A stretch of 64,000 nucleotides of DNA from Hydra vulgaris (lineage: Eukaryota > Cnidaria > Hydrozoa > Anthoathecata > Hydridae). The stretch spans positions 13,065,001 through 13,129,000 of the forward strand of contig NC_088933.1 of the NCBI RefSeq assembly GCF_038396675.1, in the 5' to 3' direction. A program made the position numbers and the translations under genes. Each line of letters opens with the position of its first letter. Position 1 is the stretch's first letter. Below are positions 2,456 through 63,465 of this stretch, one piece after another. The notes under the pieces are model-generated. The model did not search any database, was not told where the DNA came from, and worked only from the letters and a program-made list of their open reading frames with translations.

Positions 2456-4560
2456 TTAGTTAGCAAATACCAAATCTTTACTAAGGAGATCTACAACTAA
2501 AGCATATTTCAAAATGTCAAAATCATCTGCCAGATTATAATCAGCTTTACTAGTCCAGTAAGCAATGACATACAAAGGGCTATTTTTTGTTTTCATTTTT
2601 TCAATTTTTCCGTTGTAAATAGTTGCCTGACAAGTATTATTACTCCAAGTGTGAAAAATCTTTCGACCAATTACTTTACCTTCTAAAATATCTAGAATAT
2701 TTTGTTTGGTCAATGGATCAAGCTTAGGAAATTCTACACCTAGATTTTGTCAAGTTAGATTTTTCACTTTTTTCTCTAATTTTTTTCTATCTGAAATTTG
2801 TCTTTTACTTATGTTTTGGTTTGCTCTATTTATCATTTATTTTCGCAATTCTAAGTATTGACTACAATTTTGCTGCCTTTTCTTTCTTCCATACGAAATT
2901 GCAAAATTTATCATTTGTTCCTGTTCAGTTTCATTGCATGAATCAATAAAAGCAAGAACATTGTTTTTTTGTGCTCATATTCGAGATGACAAATAGCACA
3001 AAGTAGCATTAGGGGAACATTTTTTAGTAGCATTAAACATGCCCATCACCTCCTCTGCAATGTTATTCACTCTAGCAGATCTTGTTTCAATCAAAAGATC
3101 TTTTGTTATTTCCATTTTAAAATAATTTTTAAATTATCTGTGAAGAACATCCACACAACAAGTTAGACATGCAGACATTTGTCTACAGAACATTTCTTCA
3201 TTTAATGGTTTTTTTCTTATTGAAAGAAGCATGCTATTATTTGGTAATTCTCCAAAAAAGTCATTTGCACAAGTTAACAAATCTAATGGGACCATAGTGT
3301 ATTTTTTAAAAACATTAATAACAGTTTGAGCTATATTAACTCCATATAGATGATGAACTTGATTTTCTACTGAGGTATAAAATTTCTATATCCAAGGACC
3401 AGTGAATAGTTTACCCAAAATTCCGAGAACTTGAAGTTCGGATAAGGCAGTTGAGAAATCTTCCCGTAGACGTGTTTGTAAGCCACCACATTTAACTGTA
3501 CCAGTGGCTAAAAACTTTTAAAAAGTTTCATGATATGCAAAATAAACTCCAGCCAAGTAAAATGAAATATGCAGCTGATTTCCCCAATATCTTGGAATCA
3601 AACCACATGAAAAACCTCAACTGTACTGCGACAAGGCACTGATTCAAACTTAAAACCAAATCTTTGAGAAAAGATTTCCAAGATAATTGGAATGTTTTTT
3701 GTTGACACTTGATTAACAATTGCATCATAAACAAACAGTCTTAATTTGAATGTGTATGATTTATGATCTATTTTTGAACATTGGGGAGAAGTTTTTTTTT
3801 CACATAAATTTTTTTCAAGAATTGAATTATTTATTTGCAATGCAGTTATATATTTTTCTTTTTCTTGAAGTTGTTGATGCAATTGTTTAACATTTTGAAG
3901 CTCAGAGTTGATTTCTATTTGAAAATGTTTTGCTTGTTTTGCTTCATTTTTTAAATATTTCATTATTTTCTTAACATTTTAATTTTTCTCAACAGGTATT
4001 CTGGATCATACATATGTTTTTTAAGCTTGAGTATCTGTATTTCTTTTCGCTTCAGCTTTTGGAACTTTTTTATGTTTTTGTTTTTGTAACAGACTTTTTA
4101 GGCTGTTTATACGTTCAGTATTTTTTTTGTTCATAAAAACTCTATCACTGATGGCTTTATGCAACCTTAATGTAAGAGATGCACATGATGCACAATTAGT
4201 GGTAGAAGGTTCAACATTTACAGGAACAAGAGAATAGTTTATTTTATTATTAGACTGTTTGATATCTGATTTAATTTCAAAAGGCTCACGACAAAGAGAT
4301 TTATAGTCCTGAAATCTAATAACAATTGATATGTTTTTGAATTTCTTAAAGTTGTTAATTACTTTTCTAACTCTGTGTTTGTATACGAAGTTGATATTTT
4401 TCTTCAGTGCTTTAAATGTTTTAATAAAATTAGACCCATTTGAATAATAAGAGAACATAACATGACCCTTTAATACTGGAATTCCAAAAGGTAATGGAAG
4501 GTTTGCTGAAAAATTATCATTAATGTACTGCTGGCCTACATCATGATTTGGTACAGACAT
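2456..4560 (-). pseudogene. Broken gene of a dispersed (probably transposon-related) protein family
   Basis: One protein of about 650-700 residues can be followed from MSVPNHDVGQ (4560) to DLLSKDLVFAN (2456). At least three in-frame stops and frame changes break it, near 4020, 3600, 3130, 2990 and 2745. Segments: a charged, Lys-rich N-terminus with a CASC pair; a coiled coil (about 3963-3800); a block around KLRLFVYDAIVNQVSTKNIP; a Cys-rich block around MFCRQMSACLTCCVDVLH (about 3200-3130); and a C-terminal block GRKIFHTWSN...YVIAYW. I recognise the style of a high-copy cnidarian repeat family but cannot name it. No terminal repeats were found. Confidence 0.6.
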
Positions 4561-5050
4561 TTCTTTAGTTAGCAGTTATGCCTATGATTTTGAATAAAAA
4601 TAAAAATATAACAAATCTTTAACACCAGTTTGGTTACTAAAAAAAATTCGCAATAAAAAATTTTAATAGCTTTTTTAATAATGGCTGTCAAAAACATAAA
4701 ATGTTCAAATCTAGATATCTTGGGAAGATCCTACAAACTTGAAATATTTTAATAGCATAGATAATTGATTGTTGTAAATGGCCATAGTAGTTTAATAAAG
4801 GTCCACGCTCATATTTTTGTTAAATTTAAACATAATAGATTACCTTAAATCTCTATCCAGCACAAATAATGAGATGGAGAATAAAATTAAACTGTAGTAC
4901 TAAATAAAAGTGTAATTATTTCTTTATTAAAACAATAAGCAAAATATGATTTTTATACCAACTGAAGCGAGTAAAAATGATGAAGAACTAATATACTTTT
5001 AAAACGCATGAGAAGTTTGTCACACAAACAAGGAGCCAAAATATCACGGA
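4561..5050. other. AT-rich intergenic sequence
   Basis: Nothing recognised. Confidence 0.5.
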
Positions 5051-5085
5051 CGGCGCACAGTGGGACAGAGTGTGCCAAAATACCT
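5051..5085 (+). other. Possible solo Transib-like end (CACAGTG preceded by CGGCG)
   Basis: CACAGTG at 5056-5062 follows CGGCG, which fits the GC-rich 5-bp target preferred by Transib elements. Subterminal similarity to the 48-54 kb element is weak and no partner end was found, so chance is a real alternative. Confidence 0.3.
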
Positions 5086-23000: not shown

Positions 23001-26000
23001 ATTAAAAAACAAAATATCATACAAAACTAATATAAAGTTATGAACAAAATAATAGTAGTGTGATTAAAATTGAAAAATTAATATTAGTATCTTTAAACAG
23101 TTACTGAAAATTAAATTCTAATACTGGATTATTAATTAAATAGGCGTGAGATGATAAACTAATTAGCAGAAAATTTTAAATTTTTGCTTTTATTTATAAT
23201 AATTATATAAGTATAAAAAACAGGTTGGACATAATAATAGTAGTATTAATTTATTTAATGTTATATTGCAAATATTTTATTTTATTAACAAAAAAATGAT
23301 ATAAATTTAATTAAACAATAGTAAAAAATTAATATTTAATCGCATGTCCCCGGTTTTTTATCACAGCTTTGCATCTATTCAGCATTTAGTTAATCAAATT
23401 TTGACAACGTTCTAAAGGAATGTTGTTCCAAGCATTCTGGACAACTTGCCATAACTCCTGCTGATTTTTTGGTTTTTGACTATAAACTGCCTCTTTTACA
23501 TCCATCCAAAGGTTTTCAATCGGATTGAGATCCGGTGACTGTGCAGGCCAATCCATAACTGCAACCCTATTCCCAATGAACCAATTTTTTACCCTGCAAC
23601 TGGTATGCTTTGGATCGTTGTCCTGCATATAAACCCATCTTAGGGGCATATCTTCATCTGCATAGAGCAACATGGTATTTTGTAATATTTGAAGGTATAT
23701 GTTTTGGTCCATAATACCATCAATCTTATAGATTGGCCCTACGCAATAATAAGAAAAACAACCCCAAATATTTATTTTTGCTCCGCCATGTTTTACAGTT
23801 TTTATGATGTATTGCGGCTTGTATGCAGAGTTAGGTGGCCTCCTTACATACTTCCTGCGTCCAACGGACCCAAATAAAACAATTTTGCTTTCATCAGACC
23901 ATAAAATATTACGCCATTTTGAAACAGGCCAATCTGCATGGGTTTTTTCAAAATGTAATCTTGCTATCACATGCCTTTTTTTCATAAGGGGAACTTTTCT
24001 TGGGCTTCTGGTGACTAACTTACTTTGTACTAACCGCCTATGTACTGTTCTCGAAAAAACGCTTAAATTTAAATCTTCTTTAATATGGCGAGATGTTACA
24101 AAAGGATCTGCATCAGCAGCATGTTTTATCAATTTGTCTTCATGTTCAGTTGTTTTTTGTTTTCGGCCCCTTGTTTCGCCTACATTTTTCCATTTTAGAG
24201 CATTTCTAATCATCATAGGAGAACAACTTACTGTCTCTTGAATAAATTTGTATGTTTTCCCTTCTTGTTTTAATTTGGTAATTAGTTGTCTCTTTTCTGC
24301 ACTGCAATGCTTTGCACGACCCATAATTTCTATTTATAAAATAAATTTATACGATTATTTTATATATTTCATTAAATTAACACTAAAATTTATCTTACCT
24401 TTAATTAGTCTTACTAAAACCAAATAAACAAAAAGCTAATATAAATAAATTGATAGGAAACAACAGATATGTTATTTTAACCTACAAATCTAGATATGTT
24501 CGTATATAAAATTCGGGACTTCCCTAAAGTAATTTGAACAGTGTTACCAACATTTTTTACTCCCATTTCATTATTCAGTGTTTGTATTACTGTTATGCCT
24601 AAATTTATTAATTTATATTTAAATTTACATAAAATTATTATCACAAATCATTGTTTTACTAGCCACTACTATTATTTTGTCCACAACTGTATACTATTTA
24701 CACTTGCAAAAGAAAATAAGAAATACTTGTTCATTAAATTCAGAAAGACGCTTTTTTTTAACAAGATCCAAAAATTCAATTCTATTTTCATAAGAAACAT
24801 GAATGTTTTCTCCACCTTCTATAACTGGAACTACATCACCATTTGCCAACACCTGAAAAATTAAAAAACAATTTTTAAAATTACTCAGTATTTAATTTAA
24901 AAGTTAAAATAAAAAAAAATTAAAATGTGTGAGGGGAGATTGGGGGAAGGTGGATCTATACAACTAAAGGTAACAATGATAAAATTATATACAAAGCCAG
25001 ATATGTTGCAAAGGGCTACAACAAATTTAAGAGATTGATTAAAAAAAATTATAACCATGGAGTAGGTTAGTGTATTTTCAAAAGTTTTTATAAACTCTTC
25101 CTCAGTCATCTTCGCAACACTCTCGTGAAATCTAACCTTAAAAAAATCATTAAAAAACTTGAAAAGTTGATTTAACAGCAATTTGTAACAAAATCAAAAC
25201 AGATAAAATAAATACAGAACAAAATTTTTTATTGCAACAAGGAGGGATACGGAGTCCCAAAATGGACACCGGCTTTTAAAATCACAAAAAGATCACTTCT
25301 TCCTAGTTTTTGGTATCCAGGAGCTCTAAAAATATAAAAAAGTTTATGGACTACTAATAGGAAAAATAATAAGACTTTTAGGTAAGAGAAACAATTATTT
25401 TTTTAACCCGGAGTCCTTAGGTATTGTGGCGGCAAGGACTCTGCAACTCCGGGACTCTGGACTTAAAAACAATAAGTTCCAAGTCATTAAATCTCATGAA
25501 TTTTTTTTTTATAGCAGATCATAAGTCAATAAACATGTTTAGAGCTTCTAGACACTACAGACCTGAAAAAAAATGGAGACATAAAGCTGGAGTCCTTTTG
25601 GGACTCCGTATCCCTGGCGACAAGTATTGTTCATTTTCACAAAATGTTGGCAACATTTTAATATAGTTCTTTCTTAACTGTTGGCTGACTATAAATGTTT
25701 TGTTTTCTATTTTGTTAAAAAAACCACAAATGATTTTGTGTTGCAGATGATTGTGCAAAAAGAAGCCTCAAATTAATCAAGCAATTTGTTAGTTTATCTC
25801 AAAATTAAGAATAACAAAAAATGATAGTTGAATAGCATATTATATAGTTGTTTTATTTTTGCAAACATATTTTTTGAAAGTCACAAAATAGTTGTTAAAT
25901 AAGTGTTATTTGCATAAAAACTAAACTTCCCTAAATTTTTAGTGGTGAAGCAGCACTATTGCAATTTCCAAAAAAGTTTAAAAGTATATAAAATTATATA

Positions 26001-38700: not shown

Positions 38701-41700
38701 AATGGATTAACACATGCAACGAGCTAACCTTGCTACTTACTCAAGTAAGGGAAGGTTTTTCATTTTGGGGCCTAACTCTGCATGCTAAAGAAGCAATTAA
38801 AACGCTTAAAAATAAACTTGTCGAAGCTTGTCTGCCTCTCCTGACTTTAAGCTTCTATTAACTATAGAAACAGATGCTTCCCAAAAAGCTCTAGAAGGAG
38901 CATTATTACAGCTTGGTAGGTGTATAGCTTGTTTCTCAAGGACACTATCGAATGCCAAAAAGAAACACACAGTTGTTGAGAAAGAGGCTGCAGCTATAGT
39001 GGAATGCTGCAGAAGATGGAGGCACCTTCTTAACTTGGTTCCAAACATCAATATCACCACAGACCAAAGATCCATTTATCTTATCTTTATTAAATAAAGC
39101 TCTACAAAAATTAAAAACAAAATACTTACTTGCTGGCACTTGGAACTGGTGGATATTAACTATACAATCTCATATAAACCAGGCCACAAAAATAATGCTG
39201 ATGCCTTCTCCTGATGATCTTCCATACAAAGTACTTTGAAAACACTTCACGATATCCACACTCACCTATGTCATCCGGGGACAAAAAGAATGATACATTA
39301 CTGTAAAACTCGAAATCTGCCTTACTTGACCACTGAAATCAAGCAAATAATTAAAAAGCGTACAACATGCAATAAAACTCAAACTGCCTTTGTACAAACC
39401 TCCATGAGGTTGTCTTATTCAGGCAACAAGATCGTGGGAACATTTATCCATAGATTTTGTTAATAAATATATTTTATTACCATACCATAAATTTTGTTGG
39501 TCCCCTTCAATCCATTACAGCAAACAAATACCATCATGTGGTGGTGGACGAAAACTTGCGATACCTATTTGCCTTTCCTTGTCACGATATCACTGCATAT
39601 ACTATTATACATCATCTCCTCAGCCTTTTCTCATTATTTGGTTCACCCTCCTCAATACACACCAATCACGAGACACAGTTTAAAAGCATTAAACTCAAAC
39701 AATTTCTTGAAAGAAACAGTATCATCAAAACTAGAACTACTCGTTACCACACACAAGGCAATGGGCAATGCAAAAGAACAAAAAGGGCTATACTTAAAGC
39801 TATCAGTCTAGCCCTAAAAAAGTTAAATCTGGAAAAAGAAAAGTGGGAAATAGTCCTATAAATGGCTCTATCTTTAGTAAGAGGACTACTGTACACCGCT
39901 ACCAATGAAACACCACCACTATCTTTAGTAAGAGGACTACTGTATACCGCTACCAATGAAACATCAGAGGATGATGAGTTTCCATCAATCATCAGTAGTA
40001 GGTACCGTACTACCGGATTTTTTAACAAAACAGGACTCTGCAATACTTTACAGATCAGACAAAAGGTCGATCAACTCATTGACAAAGTTGGCAGCTGGTA
40101 GAGACTATATCTCCCTATTTCGCTCACATCAAGTTTCAAATGGAAAGATTGATACAGTATCAACCAAAGACCTTGTTCCACTTCACAAGGTAGACTCACC
40201 AGCAGAGTGTAGTAGTTATGGAATTCCGGCCCAACAGCAATCCAGGGGACAAAGTAGAGACCAAAGGACTTTTGCTCCTGATATCTGCGATCAATTAAAT
40301 GGAGAGTGGTATCTATTAAAAGTATGAAATAGTTTCAACCCCACCTAGTATACTTGAGAACTTGATAATGGATATTATCACAAATACCAAAGCACCAGAA
40401 GTGGGCATACCCAGTCAGTTTAATACTTAAAGCCCAACTACTGTAATAGAGCAATACATTCTCAAGAGTAGAACAAAATGTTAAAAGATCTAAATATCTA
40501 AACAACTACATTACTTATTAGTTCAGCATTTCCTCATTGAAAGGAATAATTTCCATGGACAAATTCAATAGTAGAGAAGACTTTTTATTTTTATATATAT
40601 TTATTTATAGCACATTCTTAAACCGTAACATCATTACCTGTCATTTAAGACTTGACACTTCTGCGAACCATATATATTAATTGCATTCTATTATTAACTC
40701 TATTATTGCGTTTTACTTACATCAATATTGTTATTGTAGTGACTTTATATATTTGATTAAAGCCTAATACTTAATATTGTACTTTATTGCCAGTTCACAA
40801 CACTTCTTTTGTTATTAAATTAAGTATGGGCTATGCAGGCTAACTAACTTAGGTTTTCTGCTGATTAAACTAACTCAATCAGCTTCAGCTTTATGCTGAT
40901 CAGCTTAAAGCTGAAGCTGAAATATTAACCACAATCCCTAAATATTTTAGCATAGTTCAGTAACTTGGCAACTTGAGACAACAATTAAAAAAAAAGAAGT
41001 GGCATCCTCAACTGCAGTGGCTTTCTCAACCTTGGGAAAGGAATACAGCCAAAAAAAAAGTAATAAAAAACATTTTAAGCTTCCAAAACACCTTTTACAC
41101 TTTCTGTAAAACCAGAAAGTTTTGATAACATTGTGTTCAAGTCATAAATGATGTCTAGTATCACTTTGTAAGTCATAAATGATATCGAGCATCTAGAACT
41201 AATAAAAAGATAATGAAAAGATGGATCATCATTATTAGTAGCAACATCATCATTGTTTTGCATCCTTGTTACTAGGCTTGCTGGAGCTGGATGTTTCTCA
41301 GAATATTATTTCTTTAACATACACAATTTTGACTCTATTTTCTTTAACTGAAGCATTTTTCATGTCATTTTCCTACTTCTACTAATACCTTTTTTTTACT
41401 AAAACTCTCTACATACTGATACCCAATTGTCTGCATCTTTATGCTCTACATGCCCCAACTATCTTTATCTTTTATACAAATCATGCAATGCAGCATCTAT
41501 ACTCAAAAAAAAAAACATTTTAAAATCAACTGACAGTTGGCCTAACGTAAATAAAGCTTAAGATCAACTGAACACAAAACTATACAAATTTACAGTAAAT
41601 AAACCTAAATGCAAGTTTACAGAACACAAATCTTTATTAAACTTTCTAACAATTTAAAACACCACAAAACATTAAAACCATTACAGAACATTAAAACAAA

Positions 41701-42769: not shown

Positions 42770-43155
<386 letters not shown>

Positions 43156-48292: not shown

Positions 48293-48297
48293 GACTG
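48293..48297 (+). repeat. Target-site duplication GACTG, left copy
   Basis: Directly abuts the CACAGTG terminus at 48298; identical to 54221-54225. Confidence 0.85.
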
Positions 48298-48337
48298 CAC
48301 AGTGGGTCGGATATTAGACATATGGTGGACAAAATTT
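48298..48337 (+). other. Left Transib terminus (long-spacer form)
   Basis: Heptamer CACAGTG 48298-48304, 24-nt gap, then ACAAAATTT (48329-48337), which matches the V(D)J nonamer ACAAAAACC at 6 of 9 positions. TGGTGGACAAAA occupies 48323-48334. Confidence 0.75.
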
Positions 48338-48659
48338 TTTTGACCTTTTTTTTTACTAAAACCCAAGCAATCACTTTCTAATTAAGATATATTTTTTTTT
48401 TTTATAAATTTGAAATTTTTAAAACTTGAAAAACGAGGATTTGTAATTTTTAATTTCAACTCTTTTAACTTTTTAAAATCGTGGAACTGAATAACACACT
48501 CTTCTAAGTTTATACTAGTGTCAATAATATCACGGCAACTAGGCGTCATTACCCCTCATCAGGTGCAATTAACTTTAAAAGCAAAAATAATCGAGTAAAT
48601 TATAAATATAAAAATGCGCACTTAAAAAAAATATGAAAATTTATCACTAGATTAGGTAT

Positions 48660-48742
48660 TCTATTATCAAACTATCATATGTCCACGACACTTGATAGTT
48701 TGATAATAGTTCAGTAGACTTTATTATTATAAAGTCCACTGA
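48660..48742. repeat. Two adjacent hairpins
   Basis: CTATTATCAAACTATCA and its inverse (48660-48708), then TCAGTAGACTTTATTA and its inverse (48711-48742). Confidence 0.85.
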
Positions 48743-48873
48743 ATTCTAATAGCACTATGTAAATAGAAAACAAGCACTCTTTATAGGCTACGTTCACTGT
48801 TTTCATTTTGACTTTTTTAACACTATGTTCTGTTGCGCCATCAAATCCAGCATTGTATCTAAACGTCAATTTA

Positions 48874-49680
48874 GTTAGTTCTTTAAGCATTGTGATTAGA
48901 ATAATCTAAGCATTGTGATTAGAATAGTTTAGTTAGTTCTTTAAGCATTGTGATTAGAATAATCTAAGCATTGTGATTAGAATAGTTTAGTTAGTTCTTT
49001 AAGCATTGTAATTAGAATAATCTAAGCATTGTGATTAGAATAGTTTACTTAGTTCTTTAAGCATTGTGATTAGAATAATCTAAGCATTGTGATTAGAATA
49101 GTTTACTTAGTTCTTTAAGCATTGTGATTAGAATAATCTAAGCATTGTGATTAGAATAGTTTACTTAGTTCTTTAAGCATTGTGATTAGAATAATCTAAG
49201 CATTGTGATTAGAATAGTTTACTTAGTTCTTTAAGCATTGTGATTAGAATAATCTAAGCATTGTGATTAGAATAGTTTACTTAGTTCTTTAAGCATTGTG
49301 ATTAGAATAATCTAAGCATTGTGATTAGAATAGTTTACTTAGTTCTTTAAGCATTGTGATTAGAATAATCTAAGCATTGTGATTAGAATAGTTTACTTAG
49401 TTCTTTAAGCATTGTGATTAGAATAATCTAAGCATTGTGATTAGAATAGTTTACTTAGTTCTTTAAGCATTGTGATTAGAATAATCTAAGCATTGTGATT
49501 AGAATAGTTTACTTAGTTCTTTAAGCATTGTGATTAGAATAATCTAAGCATTGTGATTAGAATAGTTTACTTAGTTCTTTAAGCATTGTGATTAGAATAA
49601 TCTAAGCATTGTGATTAGAATAGTTTACTTAGTTCTTTAAGCATTGTGATTAGAATAATCTAAGCATTGTGATTAGAATA
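48874..49680. repeat. 58-bp minisatellite, about 14 copies
   Basis: The unit begins TTAGTTCTTTAAGCATTGTG and contains AAGCATTGTGATTAGAATA twice, so it is itself a doubled sequence. Copies are nearly identical; the first few have TAGTTTAGTTAG where later ones have TAGTTTACTTAG, and one has ATTGTAATTAG. Confidence 0.97.
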
Positions 49681-50021
49681 GGTGCTTGTATATTAAGCAG
49701 CTAAGAGTTTTAAAAGATCTTTTAGGGGTATGAGTACTAAATAGTCATCTACATGAATGTTCTTAGGATGTATATGTCTTTTTCTTCAGCACCATTTCTT
49801 AGAAGCTAGTATATTGATTTTGATATACCACCATCAATAATTTATAATAAAGTTTAATCTGTTGAATAATTAGCAGCTTAGGGTTTTTATTTCAAATTTT
49901 TAAAATTTTTTCGACAGTCCTGTATTTAAACTCAATTTTTAGTTTTAATTTTGTTACATAAAGTTAAAAAATTAAAACTAAAAATTTGGGACTAGATAAA
50001 CTATTAATAACATCGTTAAGC

Positions 50022-50089
50022 TATATATGTTATATATGTTATATATATATATATATATAACATATATAACATATATAACATATATAGAT
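50022..50089. repeat. TATATATGT hairpin
   Basis: Inverted copies of GCTATATATGTTATATATGT around a TA run. Confidence 0.85.
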
Positions 50090-50506
50090 ATATTTTATTT
50101 ATATCTGTTGTAAAAATTATCATTAGATGAATTCATATTCAAAAAATCAGTTAAATTTTAACTATATTTCATTATCCAATGGAATTAAATCTAAATAGTT
50201 TACGGAAATTAAGTCCTCGTTGGAAGTTGCATCGTCATAGTCGTCATTGCTTTCACTATCCTCTTCGCTTTCGCTATATTGATGATGCGAGGAACTAGAA
50301 GGCATTTCTGTTAGTAAACTTATTACCTCAGAAGGAAGAGGTAACTTAAGATGATTCTGAATTCTTCCATTTAAGTTAATACTGGATGGGATAAGATCTG
50401 AGGTATCTAAGGCTCTATGAAAAATATCTTCTAGATTTTTTTTCTGCTAGTTTTACGAGCATAAAATTGTCTATCTTGTTTAAAAACTTTATGCCTAGCT
50501 TCAGAC

Positions 50507-51161
50507 TAACCATGAGCGAGGCTAGGTTTTTTCAAACCAAGACGAGACCGAGACGAGAAGTTAGTACTTCTCGTGAGAACGAGACGAGACGAGAAATTTA
50601 ACAATTTTTTGTTGGCTCTTGTGTTTCAAGTCTGACGTTTTACTTGCGCTTCAGTTTTGAATTAGGGGACAAATCTGCTAAAAGGACTCTGACAACAGGT
50701 TGGCACTCAAAATTATCCTTAACCTGTGAGGCTAACCATTCTTTTGTTGTTTGAAATTTTTTTGAAGAGCTTCAAGTTAAGCTAATGAAATTCGAGTTGA
50801 AAGTGCACCATTTTATACAAAAAGTTTTTGTATTTAAAATCTAATTAAAAATATTTAAAATCTAATTAAAATTTTTTAATTAGATTTAAAAAAAAAATCT
50901 AATTAAAAAATCTAATTAAAAATTTAATTTGTTTTTGTCAATAACAAATTAAATTTTTAATTAGATTTATTAAAATCACGGAGTCAAAATATTAATTAAT
51001 TAAAAAAACAAATTATTAAGCATTTTGTAAATTATAATAATTTTTAATTTGGAAAATAATGTAATATTTAAGTCTCGCAAAAATTTTCTATTTCTCGTTT
51101 CTCACGAGAAATCCCATTACTCACGAAAAACGAGAACGAGACGAGATCTCGCTCATGGTTA
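50507..51161. mobile_element. hAT-like non-autonomous element (655 bp) inside the Transib gene
   Basis: Ends TAACCATGAGCGAG (50507) and CTCGCTCATGGTTA (to 51161) are inverted repeats. CTTCAGAC flanks both sides (50499-50506 and 51162-51169), a perfect 8-bp duplication. Subterminal CGAGACGAGA repeats are present in both arms. The interior is AT-rich with ATCTAATTAAAA repeats and no coding signal. Confidence 0.9.
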
Positions 51162-52368
51162 CTTCAGACCCTTCTTCACCAAAATAACCTATTGGTATTA
51201 CTGTATTTTCTTCAATTTGTCTGCCATGTATTAAAACTTTATGTACAGTTGCAGGCAGCGGATACCAAGGATATTTTGACATATAATGCTTCGCCGTATC
51301 AAAACAATATTTTTCAAATTTATCTAAATTAATTTGATACTGGGAAGAAATGCATATAAGAATAGTTTTAAATTTTTTTATTAATTCTTCATCCACGTAA
51401 ATTCTTCATAAGTTATTTCGGAAAATTTTTTAACATTTTCAAATGCTCGGCGTGCAGAATTGCCGTCGTTAGTACTTCCAAAACCATCTACTTTTGGTTT
51501 ATCCGCGTAAAGGTGTAAATTTTTAAAGAACCGTTGTTGTATTTCTTTTTTTCTTCATAAAAGAATTTTCATAAATCATATCTGTATGATATGTGGACGA
51601 TGCATTCAAAAAATCGTTTCCAAGCATGTAGTGGACTAATACCATACTGTAAAGTATTAGGTTTAGGCTTTAATAATTCTGCGGTTTTGAGTTCCTGCAC
51701 TTTAACAAAATCATTGGGAGTAGCTCCACATATAGGACAAGCTTGGTTTGATTTTGTTCCAGTTAATATATTTAAAATTTTGCCATCAATTAGCGTCATA
51801 AATATAGTAAAGCTGATTTGAATTTTTTTATTATTAAAGAAATAAATTGATATTGGCTCTAGTTTATTTATTTGCCCGTCAATATCTTGTTTTTCTTTTA
51901 AAATGTGTTCTTTGGATTCCTTTATGTATTCGACTTTTAAAGGTCTAGAAAACCACACAGATTGAGGAGTGCGATTGTTCCATAAGATGTTATTATCTTC
52001 TGAGTTCAAACGAAGTGGTACAACAGTTATCACAAATAAATTTGAATCAAAATGACAACCAGCTGACATCAAAACCATAACTAAATATCATATCGGCTAT
52101 AATTTCGTTAGTATTAATGGATTCCATGTGCTGAAAAATCACTTCTTCTTGTAATTGTACAATACGTTTCACTGTATGCTCTAACAAACTCTTTAATGGT
52201 ACTTGTGCAATGATATCGGAAATTGATATACCATTTAGTCTACATGCTGATTTACATTTCCAAATCTCTTTGTAATCTGGATACATTTTACAATTTTTGA
52301 TAACAGCTCTTTGTCTAATGTTTTGATACTGCTGTTTACTTAAATTAGAATCACGTTTCTTTTGCTGA

Positions 52369-52431
52369 CGAAACATCTCTTATATTACAAGCAGCCATAC
52401 CTGCTGCTTGTAATATAAGAGATGTTTCGTG
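52369..52431. repeat. Perfect foldback inside the Transib coding region
   Basis: CGAAACATCTCTTATATTAC (and on to AAGCAG) is repeated inverted around CATACCT. One arm reads as conserved coding sequence (HETSLILQAA), so the other is likely an inverted duplication. Confidence 0.88.
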
Positions 52432-52785
52432 CAAGTTATCCCGGCATAACTCTGATGCTTCCAATCTCTTGGCCCGATCCGATTTTTCGGTATATGATAA
52501 CCTTGGTCGTCCAGAAGATGTTGATGGAATTGATTGACTTTAAGATGTTGATGGAATTGCATCATCAGTAAATGTAATTTCTCTTTTTAACCAATCTGAA
52601 TTTTTACTTTTAAATCGGCATATTGTTCTTTGGCAATCTGACAATTTTTATTCAAAAGAATTGTACAAACGACATATTTTCTTTTGAATATCATTGCTAA
52701 TAACTACTGTTTCATCACTTCCAGCTATTTGAATAACGTGCTCAAAAACATTTGACTTTTTTTTATATCTTTCTTTTTCAGCCAT

Positions 52786-54192
52786 ACATTAAATAAATTC
52801 TCGTATTTGAAACGGAACATCACTTCAAAAAAACAGATATATTTTTAATTGGGGCAACTAGGGGCAAGTTTTGAAAATTGGAATATATTCCTAAACATTA
52901 CCAAAATTTAATCGTGTAAATATATATATAGAGAGAAATACGGAGATTTTTTTAAAAGTCAAATCAAAGTTTTGAAAAATGTCAAGGAAGAAAAAATTCT
53001 ATACACGCGCCTAATTCTTTTATATAATCAATATAATAATGCAGTATTTTAATTTAATTAAATATTTTTAAAAACTATATACCTGTATAAAAATAATTTT
53101 CTTTACAGCAATCAAAAATGTTATTTATTTCAAAAGTTATGCATTATTAAACTAACAGCTCACTTTACGCTAACTCACTGCAAACTAAGCTGAGATAAAA
53201 AATATCCACAATTTGAGTGCATATTAAAAACAAACTAGGTAATCAATTTAAAAATAGACCACGTTTATTATCATTTTGGTGGGTTTACTTTAAGGTACCA
53301 CAAAAAAAAAAAAAAATCTTTTTAAGAACTTAAAAAAATTGAGTTTCTGCCAAAAAATCGGGTCTCAGAAACCATAATGAAATGGTATATCATAAGGAAA
53401 TAGTTTATTTTTTCGTATAAGCCCGTAAATTTCACCAATTTTTATAACATTACTAAACAAAAATGCACAAAAATTATTAGGTAAGGAGTACAATTTGCAT
53501 TAACAAACAAAATAACATGTGTCTATGTTTGGTAAAAAAAAATTAATTTCAAGAAAACAGCATAAATTACAAATCATTATTTTAAAATGTGAAAGAAGCC
53601 TTAAAAGGGAAATTTAGGGGCAAAGTCTATAGTTTGAATTGGTTGTATATATATTTGTATTTACTAGTTCAAGAACCTAATATAGGTTTTCCTAGGTTCC
53701 CTAAAATATAACATTTACTTATGTTAAGAAAACACTTAAATGTTAAAAACTTACCTCCTTATTTTAAAACCATTTTATAAGTGTATTATAAACGCTGATC
53801 TTTACTTTATTCTTTTTTCCTAAGGCTGTTCTGTTAAATATTTTAAATATAATTGCGTATGCACTATACTAATTACGTATGCACATAAAATTTTAAAATT
53901 TCCTTTTTCCTATAACTATGCATGTTATGCATAGTTATAGGAAAAAGGGCATTGCATAAGCCTAAAACCGAGTTTATTATCTCAGCTAAATGTTTAATTA
54001 CAAAAAATACAATTCAAATTAACGGTTCTTTCCTAAATTTAAAAAATATATATATATTATACATGGAACCCTAACTGATTTTTGTGGTTTTAAAACATAC
54101 TATTATACTTATAACAATTTAAAAAAAGTAAAAATAGAGTATTACGAATATGTTTTTTTTTTTTTTTTAATATAATAAATATTTTTTTTTTA
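52786..54192. other. 5' non-coding part of the Transib element
   Basis: AT-rich. 53640-54192 is homologous to the truncated copy at 42770-43050; it includes a palindrome CCTATAACTATGCATG at 53910-53942. The transposase promoter would lie here but was not resolved. Confidence 0.6.
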
Positions 54193-54220
54193 GGTTTTGT
54201 TCACCACTTGGCCCACTGTG
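54193..54220 (-). other. Right Transib terminus (short-spacer form)
   Basis: Read from the end inward: heptamer CACAGTG (54220-54214), a 12-nt gap, then AACAAAACC (54201-54193), which matches the V(D)J nonamer ACAAAAACC at 7 of 9 positions. TGGTGAACAAAA lies at 54206-54195. Confidence 0.75.
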
Positions 54221-54225
54221 GACTG
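54221..54225 (+). repeat. Target-site duplication GACTG, right copy
   Basis: Directly abuts CACTGTG at 54214-54220. Confidence 0.85.
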
Positions 54226-62275: not shown

Positions 62276-62580
62276 TAGTCTTTGAAATTTAAAATTTTTC
62301 AATGAATTTAATTTACGTTGAGAAAAGTAAAAAAAAATATTTTATCAACTTGTTTGCTCCCACGTTGGGGGTAGTTGTGGCCAAAATTTTAGGGCTGTTT
62401 TGTTCTCAGACTTCAATCACCGCAACTTTTTGCCTAGTATCCTTATTTGACATAAGTATAAACATGCAAATGTTTGGAGTTTGCTCCATGTTTGGAAGGT
62501 AGCTATCTTAAACAACAAAAAAATGCTAAATCCACCGATAAATATATATTCTATTAAAAATATATATATATATTTTATAG

Positions 62581-62797
62581 AATTTCAAGACATTCATGTT
62601 ATGATTTTTATCGGTTTTGGTTTTTTGATGACTTTTTTGAAAAAGTATGGCTATGGAGCTCTTTCATACAACTTACTCTTAGCCGCAGCCACAATTCAAT
62701 GGGCAACACTTATAAATGCATGGATAAAACAACGGATGCAAAAAAATACCAATCATTTTGAAGGCAATCCAACTAAAATTAAAGTTGGAGTGACAGA
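62581..62797 (+). CDS. Rh-family ammonium transporter, exon 2 (gene continues past the window)
   Basis: Encodes [20 protein letters not shown], then [20 protein letters not shown] and further to KIKVGVT. FQD.HVM.F.GFGFLM.FL is diagnostic of Rh proteins and covers transmembrane helices 2-3. Acceptor TTTATAG and donor GTGAGC; 2 + 71x3 + 2 nt. I found no third exon before the window ends, so the gene is partial here. Confidence 0.92.
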
Positions 62798-63465
62798 GTG
62801 AGCTGTCCTTTTTTTGCTTCTTTTTTTAATTGTTATTATTTTAATTGTTATTACTGTTATTAAAACTGTTGTTAATGTATGTCATTATTATTTTTATTAT
62901 AATTATTTTTATTATTATTATTAAGAGATTGAATCTCAAAATTATGCAAATTATGCACCAAGAAATGTAAACTATTAGTGTAAAACGTTTTCGAGGTTTG
63001 AGGTTTTGGGTCAAGCTGACCCGAAACTTCAAACCAAAAAAAAAAGCAAAACAAAAAAAAACTTAGCAACCTTTAAAATCTTCAACCGGTATCATTCTCA
63101 TCTCTCTTTAACAACAAATCTAATGAAAGAAATAATGATCGACATCTTTCTCTAAATTAGGTAGCACATGAGCCGAAGCAAAGACATAAGCAGAAAAAAT
63201 TGAGCAAAAAAAATCGAATGTAATAGTGTTGGGACTGGAGGTCTCAGATAAATATGACACAAATAAACAGGCAGCGAAGAGCTTCTTTAGAGCAGTTGGT
63301 TTAAATACCATTGGTATCTGAGAATCAGAGGTTTTAATTACAAAACACAACACAGAACTCCAAAAAACCAAGCTCATGGAGGTCACAGTCAAAAACTTCG
63401 AATTACATGCCCTGGTCTTGTCGAAAGCCAGGCATCATTTCGTTATTAACTTGTACATATATAAC
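62798..63465. other. Rh gene intron 2, AT-rich
   Basis: ATTATT-rich tract (62820-62925), then a more balanced stretch with a 90-codon minus-strand open frame (63392-63120) that has no recognised domain and lies next to the LINE scrap. Confidence 0.45.

Follow-up and report, generated by a model that had tools for sequence, protein, structure and literature searches.

Two nested Transib insertions of different families, the outer one with unequal CACAGTG ends, in the Hydra vulgaris genome

In a 64,000-nucleotide stretch of the Hydra vulgaris genome (NC_088933.1, positions 13,065,001 to 13,129,000; hereafter the window, with positions counted from its first nucleotide), the segment 48298-54220 (5923 bp) begins and ends with CACAGTG, the heptamer of vertebrate V(D)J recombination signals, and encloses a broken transposase gene of the Transib type. 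A first-pass annotation read this segment as one complete insertion of a RAG1-related Transib transposon. At issue is whether gene and ends are parts of the same element. We find that they are not: with a probability of about 0.93, the segment holds two Transib insertions from distinct families, the second lying within the first. An insertion derived from Transib, with CACAGTG ends, a target duplication and a broken Transib/RAG1-type gene inside it, is indeed present; the single complete element is not. Two families, their ends, their duplications, the nesting and the decay can all be read from this locus and its relatives.

Two families of ends at one locus

At the outer boundaries, the details of the first-pass annotation were borne out. 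The ends CACAGTGGGTC at 48298 (plus strand) and CACAGTGGGCC at 54220 (minus strand) both carry the exact heptamer of the vertebrate V(D)J signal consensus (PMC8289069), and they are flanked by an exact 5-bp duplication, GACTG, at 48293-48297 and 54221-54225. Within the window alone such a pair is moderately rare, as 7 of 200 shuffled windows contained at least one inverted pair of CAC-starting 9-mers with identical 5-bp flanks. We consider the end pair and the duplication real because they recur genome-wide: a scan for ends at 27 loci (26 fetched, plus the window) found both in 15, and the 5-bp flanks mostly match, being identical at 8 loci, one mismatch apart at 5 and unlike at 2. For the remaining 12 loci, the second end was not found within the fetched stretch. 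In the genome searched (911.5 Mb, 15 contigs), the long end, CACAGTGGGCCGGATATTAGACATATGGTGGACAAAA, had 199 sites at up to 3 mismatches and the same pattern read backwards had none; this count covers the long end alone. A search with the outer element's 5' side matched at all 40 scored candidates (of 449), and 40 of 357 candidates were scored for the 3' side, in each case including the window's own, so that both are lower bounds.

The heptamer is exactly CACAGTG in 11 of the 15 two-ended copies at each end, and targets with an exact duplication lean to C-R-N-Y-G (n = 8). Apart from the window's 5923 bp, two-ended elements measure 1655-2184 bp. Transib and RAG-like elements produce 5-bp duplications (PMC7204232), and the outer family combines inverted ends starting with CAC and a 5-bp duplication as a Transib does (15 of 27 loci, 8 with exact duplications).

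The gene inside belongs to a family with different ends. We searched the genome with 51160-52790 and scored 40 of 112 candidates, including the window's own, so the copy number is a lower bound; 20 copies were fetched with their flanks and 2 more later (L029 and L030), giving 22. In the 20 aligned copies, the stretch homologous to the window runs from about 53379 to near 50020, where it fades, and outside this interval there are solely weak A/T-rich matches of about 60-70%. Upstream junctions printed for 18 copies, without selection for CACTATG, pass from unrelated sequence to CACTATG (14 of 18) or a close variant (4 of 18) and then to GGTTTCTGAGACCCGATTTTTTGGC or a near match. The sister copies meet unrelated flanks at CACTATG, so the gene at 50162-52785 is carried by a Transib from a second family, truncated and nested in the outer element. 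An end scan that did select for this heptamer (up to 4 substitutions) found both CACTATG ends in 13 of the 20 copies, defining elements of 2.9-3.5 kb, with a 5-bp duplication that is exact in 9, has one mismatch in 3 and is lacking in 1. The ends of this inner family read CACTATGGTTTCTGAGAC, and CACTATG can be seen in copies such as L013, L016 and L019; L029 and L030 had no recognisable CACTATG end. At the family level, the inner elements thus also combine CAC-starting inverted ends with a 5-bp duplication. The window copy retains a single decayed end, lacks its 3' end and breaks off at about 50020. The resulting arrangement, from the window sequence, the family end scan and alignments to sister copies, is as follows.

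48293..48297, no strand: left GACTG copy of the 5-bp target duplication (window sequence and family end scan)
48298..48336, plus: CACAGTG + 23 nt + GACAAAATT, the outer element's long (23-type) end; the 3' end relative to the outer transposase remnant
48298..50020, minus: 3' part of the outer element, collinear with positions 1008-2160 of outer copy L033 in sense (alignment)
50021..53379, minus: copy of the inner, younger Transib, from another family, 3' end lost (sister-copy alignments)
53373..53379, minus: terminal heptamer at the 5' end of the inner Transib, decayed to CATTATG (CACTATG in 14 of 18 junctions)
53380..54220, minus: 5' part of the outer element, collinear with positions 1-747 of L033 (alignment)
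54186..54220, minus: CACAGTG + 12 nt + AACAAAACC, the outer element's short (12-type) end; in the family, GACAAAACC
54221..54225, no strand: right GACTG copy of the target duplication (window sequence and family end scan)

Relative to L033, about 0.26 kb of the outer element is absent where the inner Transib is truncated. The Kimura two-parameter distance (K80) of the window's outer copy to 23 relatives averages 0.229, while those others average 0.081-0.118, values that include their distance to the window copy. For the inner copy the mean K80 to 20 sister copies is 0.050, and across all 21 inner copies, including the window's, mean pairwise values range from 0.042 to 0.087 over about 1.2 kb. 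The outer copy is thus more diverged than the inner one (0.229 versus 0.050), which agrees with the order expected from nesting, and is an old or divergent member of its family. The earlier description of the insertion as datable is therefore true in a loose sense, in that nesting gives relative ages.

The alternative, that a single 5.9-kb Transib carries its own gene at 50162-52785 between its own CACAGTG ends, accounts for a gene and ends that are both of Transib type and for an exact duplication. The sister copies contradict it: the 20 aligned members of the gene family match the inner part of the window and not its outer parts, and all 18 printed junctions switch from flank to element at CACTATG or a close variant. 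Moreover, at 14 loci other than the window, CACAGTG ends are paired 1.7-2.2 kb apart, and none of the 13 of these that were scanned with a Transib profile (described below) has transposase sequence past column 146. The CACTATG junctions, the CACTATG end scan and the CACAGTG pairs at other loci together refute the single element, to which we give almost no weight.

Transposase sequences of the two families

The inner gene is of Transib type. Its piece 51569-52087 matches the transposase of HzTransib (PDB 6pqn) at E=3e-24, and in the sister copy L012 two frames match the same protein at 1.1e-20 and, over the catalytic part, 1.4e-68, so that transposase homology joins the ends and duplications in marking the inner element as a Transib. 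The proposed RAG1 similarity held up only weakly: L012 matches the RAG1-like protein RAG1L (6b40) at 6.2e-5 and the Pfam RAG1 model scores 0.0012, below its cut-off, and in this the inner family differs from RAG-like transposons. Pfam and NCBIfam scans of the locus returned no family above its cut-off. Copies with an intact transposase, which the first-pass annotation had suggested seeking, did not turn up: none of 19 listed copies has one uninterrupted frame through the gene, and the longest frame is 421 amino acids. Because no single frame spans the gene in these 19, the listed inner copies look dead, as judged on unspliced frames. In the window, the gene is damaged as follows.

50162..52785, minus: broken transposase gene of the inner Transib, with stops, frame breaks, a nested insert and a local deletion
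50507..51161, no strand: 655-bp insert in the inner Transib with inverted termini TAACCATGAGCGAG, a third level of nesting
52368..52430, no strand: perfect 28-bp inverted repeat with a 7-nt gap, a local deletion with an inverted copy

The 655-bp insert is flanked by an 8-bp duplication, CTTCAGAC (50499-50506 and 51162-51169), and is absent from the fetched sister copies that align across that point. At 52368-52430 many sister copies instead hold about 0.13-0.16 kb of other sequence, and the 28-bp inverted repeat looks like a template-switch deletion.

The outer family retains much less of a transposase. We built a Transib profile from proteins of at least 400 amino acids found with the inner family and calculated E-values at a fixed size of 1000. 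In a first run, the best three matches among six-frame pieces of outer copies reached 2.1e-11, 3.4e-11 and 6.4e-9, and the best of 200 shuffled elements, a control made for this run alone, reached 0.25. Pieces with an independent E-value (iE) below 0.05 occurred in 22 of 26 sources (best 7.7e-13), mostly several per source and in collinear order, within columns 25-163 of 526; winR, L060, L063 and L066 had no piece at this threshold. Of 7 further loci, 6 agree with the N-terminal pattern; among these 6, 2 do so weakly and 1 (L044) is the same element as L053. The remnant is a decayed N-terminal part of a transposase whose reading direction leads away from the short end to the long one, and includes a block resembling the first catalytic-aspartate motif (KAGFDGAIGYSVYKQ in L037, NAGFDGATEHS in the window). 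A direct PDB search with a 56-amino-acid outer fragment found no match; the fragment is convincing because BLASTP aligns it to the inner transposase (31% over 52 amino acids) and because of the Transib profile.

48711..48905, minus: outer transposase remnant, an open reading frame with the first catalytic-D block KELTKLTFRYNAGFDGATEHS (profile iE 0.018)
48870..49681, no strand: minisatellite expansion within the outer element, close to its transposase remnant; a 58-bp unit repeated in tandem 14 times, copies 99% alike
42770..43083, plus: second, partial copy of the outer family in the same window, short-end side

These matches argue that the outer family is itself Transib-derived. Since no match extends beyond column 163 of 526 in any of the 26 sources, the family looks non-autonomous. 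An element of another superfamily, such as a member of the hAT group with 5-bp duplications, could in principle have acquired a Transib-like fragment by capture or resemble one by chance: 5-bp duplications occur outside Transib, and a complete outer transposase was seen in no copy. We think this improbable, given the Transib profile pieces, mostly collinear, in 22 of 26 sources and a CAC...TG heptamer with 5-bp duplications like those of Transib and RAG-like elements (PMC7204232; PMC8289069).

Several observations count against two nested Transibs as we describe them. The 5-bp flanks are unlike at 2 of the 15 two-ended outer loci (L034 and L054), and the duplication of the inner copy is uncheckable in the window, where its 3' end is lost. 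The window's own outer remnant matches the Transib profile weakly, as do several single pieces among the 22 sources (0.005-0.04). Among the loci examined there was no autonomous element with CACAGTG ends, the genome not having been searched by protein for one. Finally, the window's outer copy may represent a divergent subfamily and not merely an old copy.

Two specific assignments of the outer element were tried and dropped. A hAT origin of the ends, with an 8-bp duplication and termini starting from CAGTGGG, fails because the 8-bp flanks differ and 5-bp duplications recur elsewhere; IS3EU was discarded because its complete families have TA..TA termini (PMC10045372). Among the outer copies, L067 (C10:25189300-25194300) is 4.6 kb long and has several longer frames that resemble, by eye, a nested hAT element. 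Another CACAGTGGGAC lies at window positions 5052-5066, with a link to the outer family not established; frames near it have no accepted Pfam family (3598-4575, minus).

Unequal ends and V(D)J signals

The two ends of the outer family differ in layout. A block, GGTGGACAAAA, follows CACAGTG at a distance of 8 nt at one end and 19 nt at the other. Across 47 ends scanned without assuming how they pair, the distance was 8 in 24, 19 in 22 and 17 in 1, with some ends counted twice through overlapping loci (window/L039, L032/L067 and L044/L053). Thirteen pairs of facing ends are flanked by a duplication with no more than one mismatch, and each consists of one short and one long end, 8+19 in 12 pairs and 8+17 in 1. 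The ends share a 12-nt block, TGGTGGACAAAA, offset by exactly 11. The shared GACAAAA begins at exactly 12 and 23 nt, and the nonamer-like ACAAAA has spacings of 13 and 24, within 1 of the 12 and 23 of V(D)J signals. When the nonamer ACAAAAACC was matched over spacers of 8-29, the best registers were 13 at the short end (7/9) and 24 at the long end (6/9). In the inner family both ends have the same layout, with a nonamer-like match of 7/9 at spacer 22 at the 5' end and 5/9 at the 3' end.

The outer ends thus resemble vertebrate V(D)J signals in the CACAGTG heptamer (11 of 15 at each end), in an A-rich block 13 and 24 nt away and in the offset of 11. Unlike those signals, they match the nonamer at just 7/9 and 6/9, and they are transposon ends rather than signals of gene segments. 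The asymmetry could be real but unrelated to the 12/23 arrangement, with a transposase-binding block simply placed 11 bp deeper at one end than at the other, and with a nonamer likeness that arose by chance in A-rich sequence, which inflates matches. The long end agrees with the nonamer at 6/9 only, the shared block TGGTGGACAAAA reaches beyond any nonamer, and the symmetric inner family also scores 7/9 at spacer 22 at its 5' end. Set against this are the best registers themselves, 13 and 24: among 200,000 paired shuffles, the proportion that brought both ends to within 1 of 12 and 23 was only 0.00026, although this test was designed after the pattern had been seen. The pairing of short with long ends in 13 of 13 duplication-matched pairs also counts against an asymmetry unrelated to 12/23 signals. 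We regard the odds of such an unrelated asymmetry as even. The uniform pairing fits a rule of one short plus one long end, yet a common source element could explain it. A bolder proposal, that this is a cnidarian Transib lineage with a full 12/23-type pair and the exact vertebrate heptamer, and that short-plus-long pairing is an old Transib property and not a vertebrate invention, is tentative and, in our estimate, rather unlikely.

Unequal ends have precedents. Asymmetric ends are constant in Transib subgroup I and occur at times in subgroup II (PMC9435367), and a few Transibs have 12/23-type ends: Transib5 of Drosophila and Transib2 and TransibN1-N3 of Anopheles (PMC8355894). According to the same source, the ends of RAG-like transposons resemble vertebrate signals weakly, and these few Transibs are said to have the sole 12/23-type ends outside V(D)J. 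Compared by description, the insect elements share with the outer family a CAC heptamer-like terminus and a nonamer-like block near 12 and 23 (PMC8355894); the outer family differs from them in its cnidarian host, its exact CACAGTG (11 of 15 at each end) and its longer block TGGTGGACAAAA. The outer family is a further case of the asymmetric Transib ends already known in insects. The ends of HzTransib, by contrast, are described as symmetric (PMC8289069), whereas the outer family is asymmetric and looks non-autonomous. ProtoRAG has the heptamer CACTATG, as in the inner family (PMC8289069), and, with RAG-like transposons, produces 5-bp duplications, its own ends being asymmetric (27/31; PMC8355894). 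Hydra is already represented in published trees, as Hydra vulgaris among RAG1/Transib homologs (legend in PMC9435367) and as Hydra magnipapillata among Transibs (legend in PMC4411706). Among the titles and abstract openings listed by literature searches, none concerned 12/23-type Transib ends in a cnidarian, and the family may be catalogued in Repbase; CACAGTGGG together with a transposon gave no literature match.

History of the locus and its meaning

These features suggest a sequence of events, of which the order of the later changes is inferred. The first to insert would have been a Transib derivative of about 2.1 kb, non-autonomous and with unequal CACAGTG ends, one short (12-type) and one long (23-type), presumably moved in trans by a Transib transposase whose 5-bp stagger duplicated GACTG. 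Later, an autonomous-type Transib of about 3 kb from the other family, with symmetric CACTATG ends, would have inserted into it. A deletion may then have taken the 3' end of the inner copy together with about 0.26 kb of its host element, and the 8-bp-duplicating insert and the expansion of the minisatellite would have lengthened the locus to 5.9 kb. The most likely mechanism is ordinary Transib cut-and-paste, in which a transposase supplied in trans cuts adjacent to CAC at both ends and joins them to the target with a 5-bp stagger. Mobilisation in trans, hairpin chemistry, cleavage next to CAC and a need for one short plus one long end are inferred by analogy with the biochemistry of Transib and RAG (HzTransib).

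Elsewhere in the window, 23386-24333 (minus) is an uninterrupted 315-amino-acid frame of a Tc1/mariner-type transposase (Pfam HTH_Tnp_Tc3_2 and DDE_3), and 39454-39861 (plus) is an integrase-core-like frame (rve, 7.2e-7, just below the cut-off). An exon-like frame at 62451-62801 (plus) matches the ammonium transporter family (PF00909, 9.2e-8) and is perhaps part of an Rh-type host gene.

For the origin of the 12/23 rule, a case from a distant lineage, with the exact heptamer and in many copies, provides a natural dataset on whether asymmetric pairing is under selection. Two Transib families of a single genome here also carry, respectively, the heptamer of ProtoRAG (CACTATG) and that of V(D)J signals (CACAGTG).

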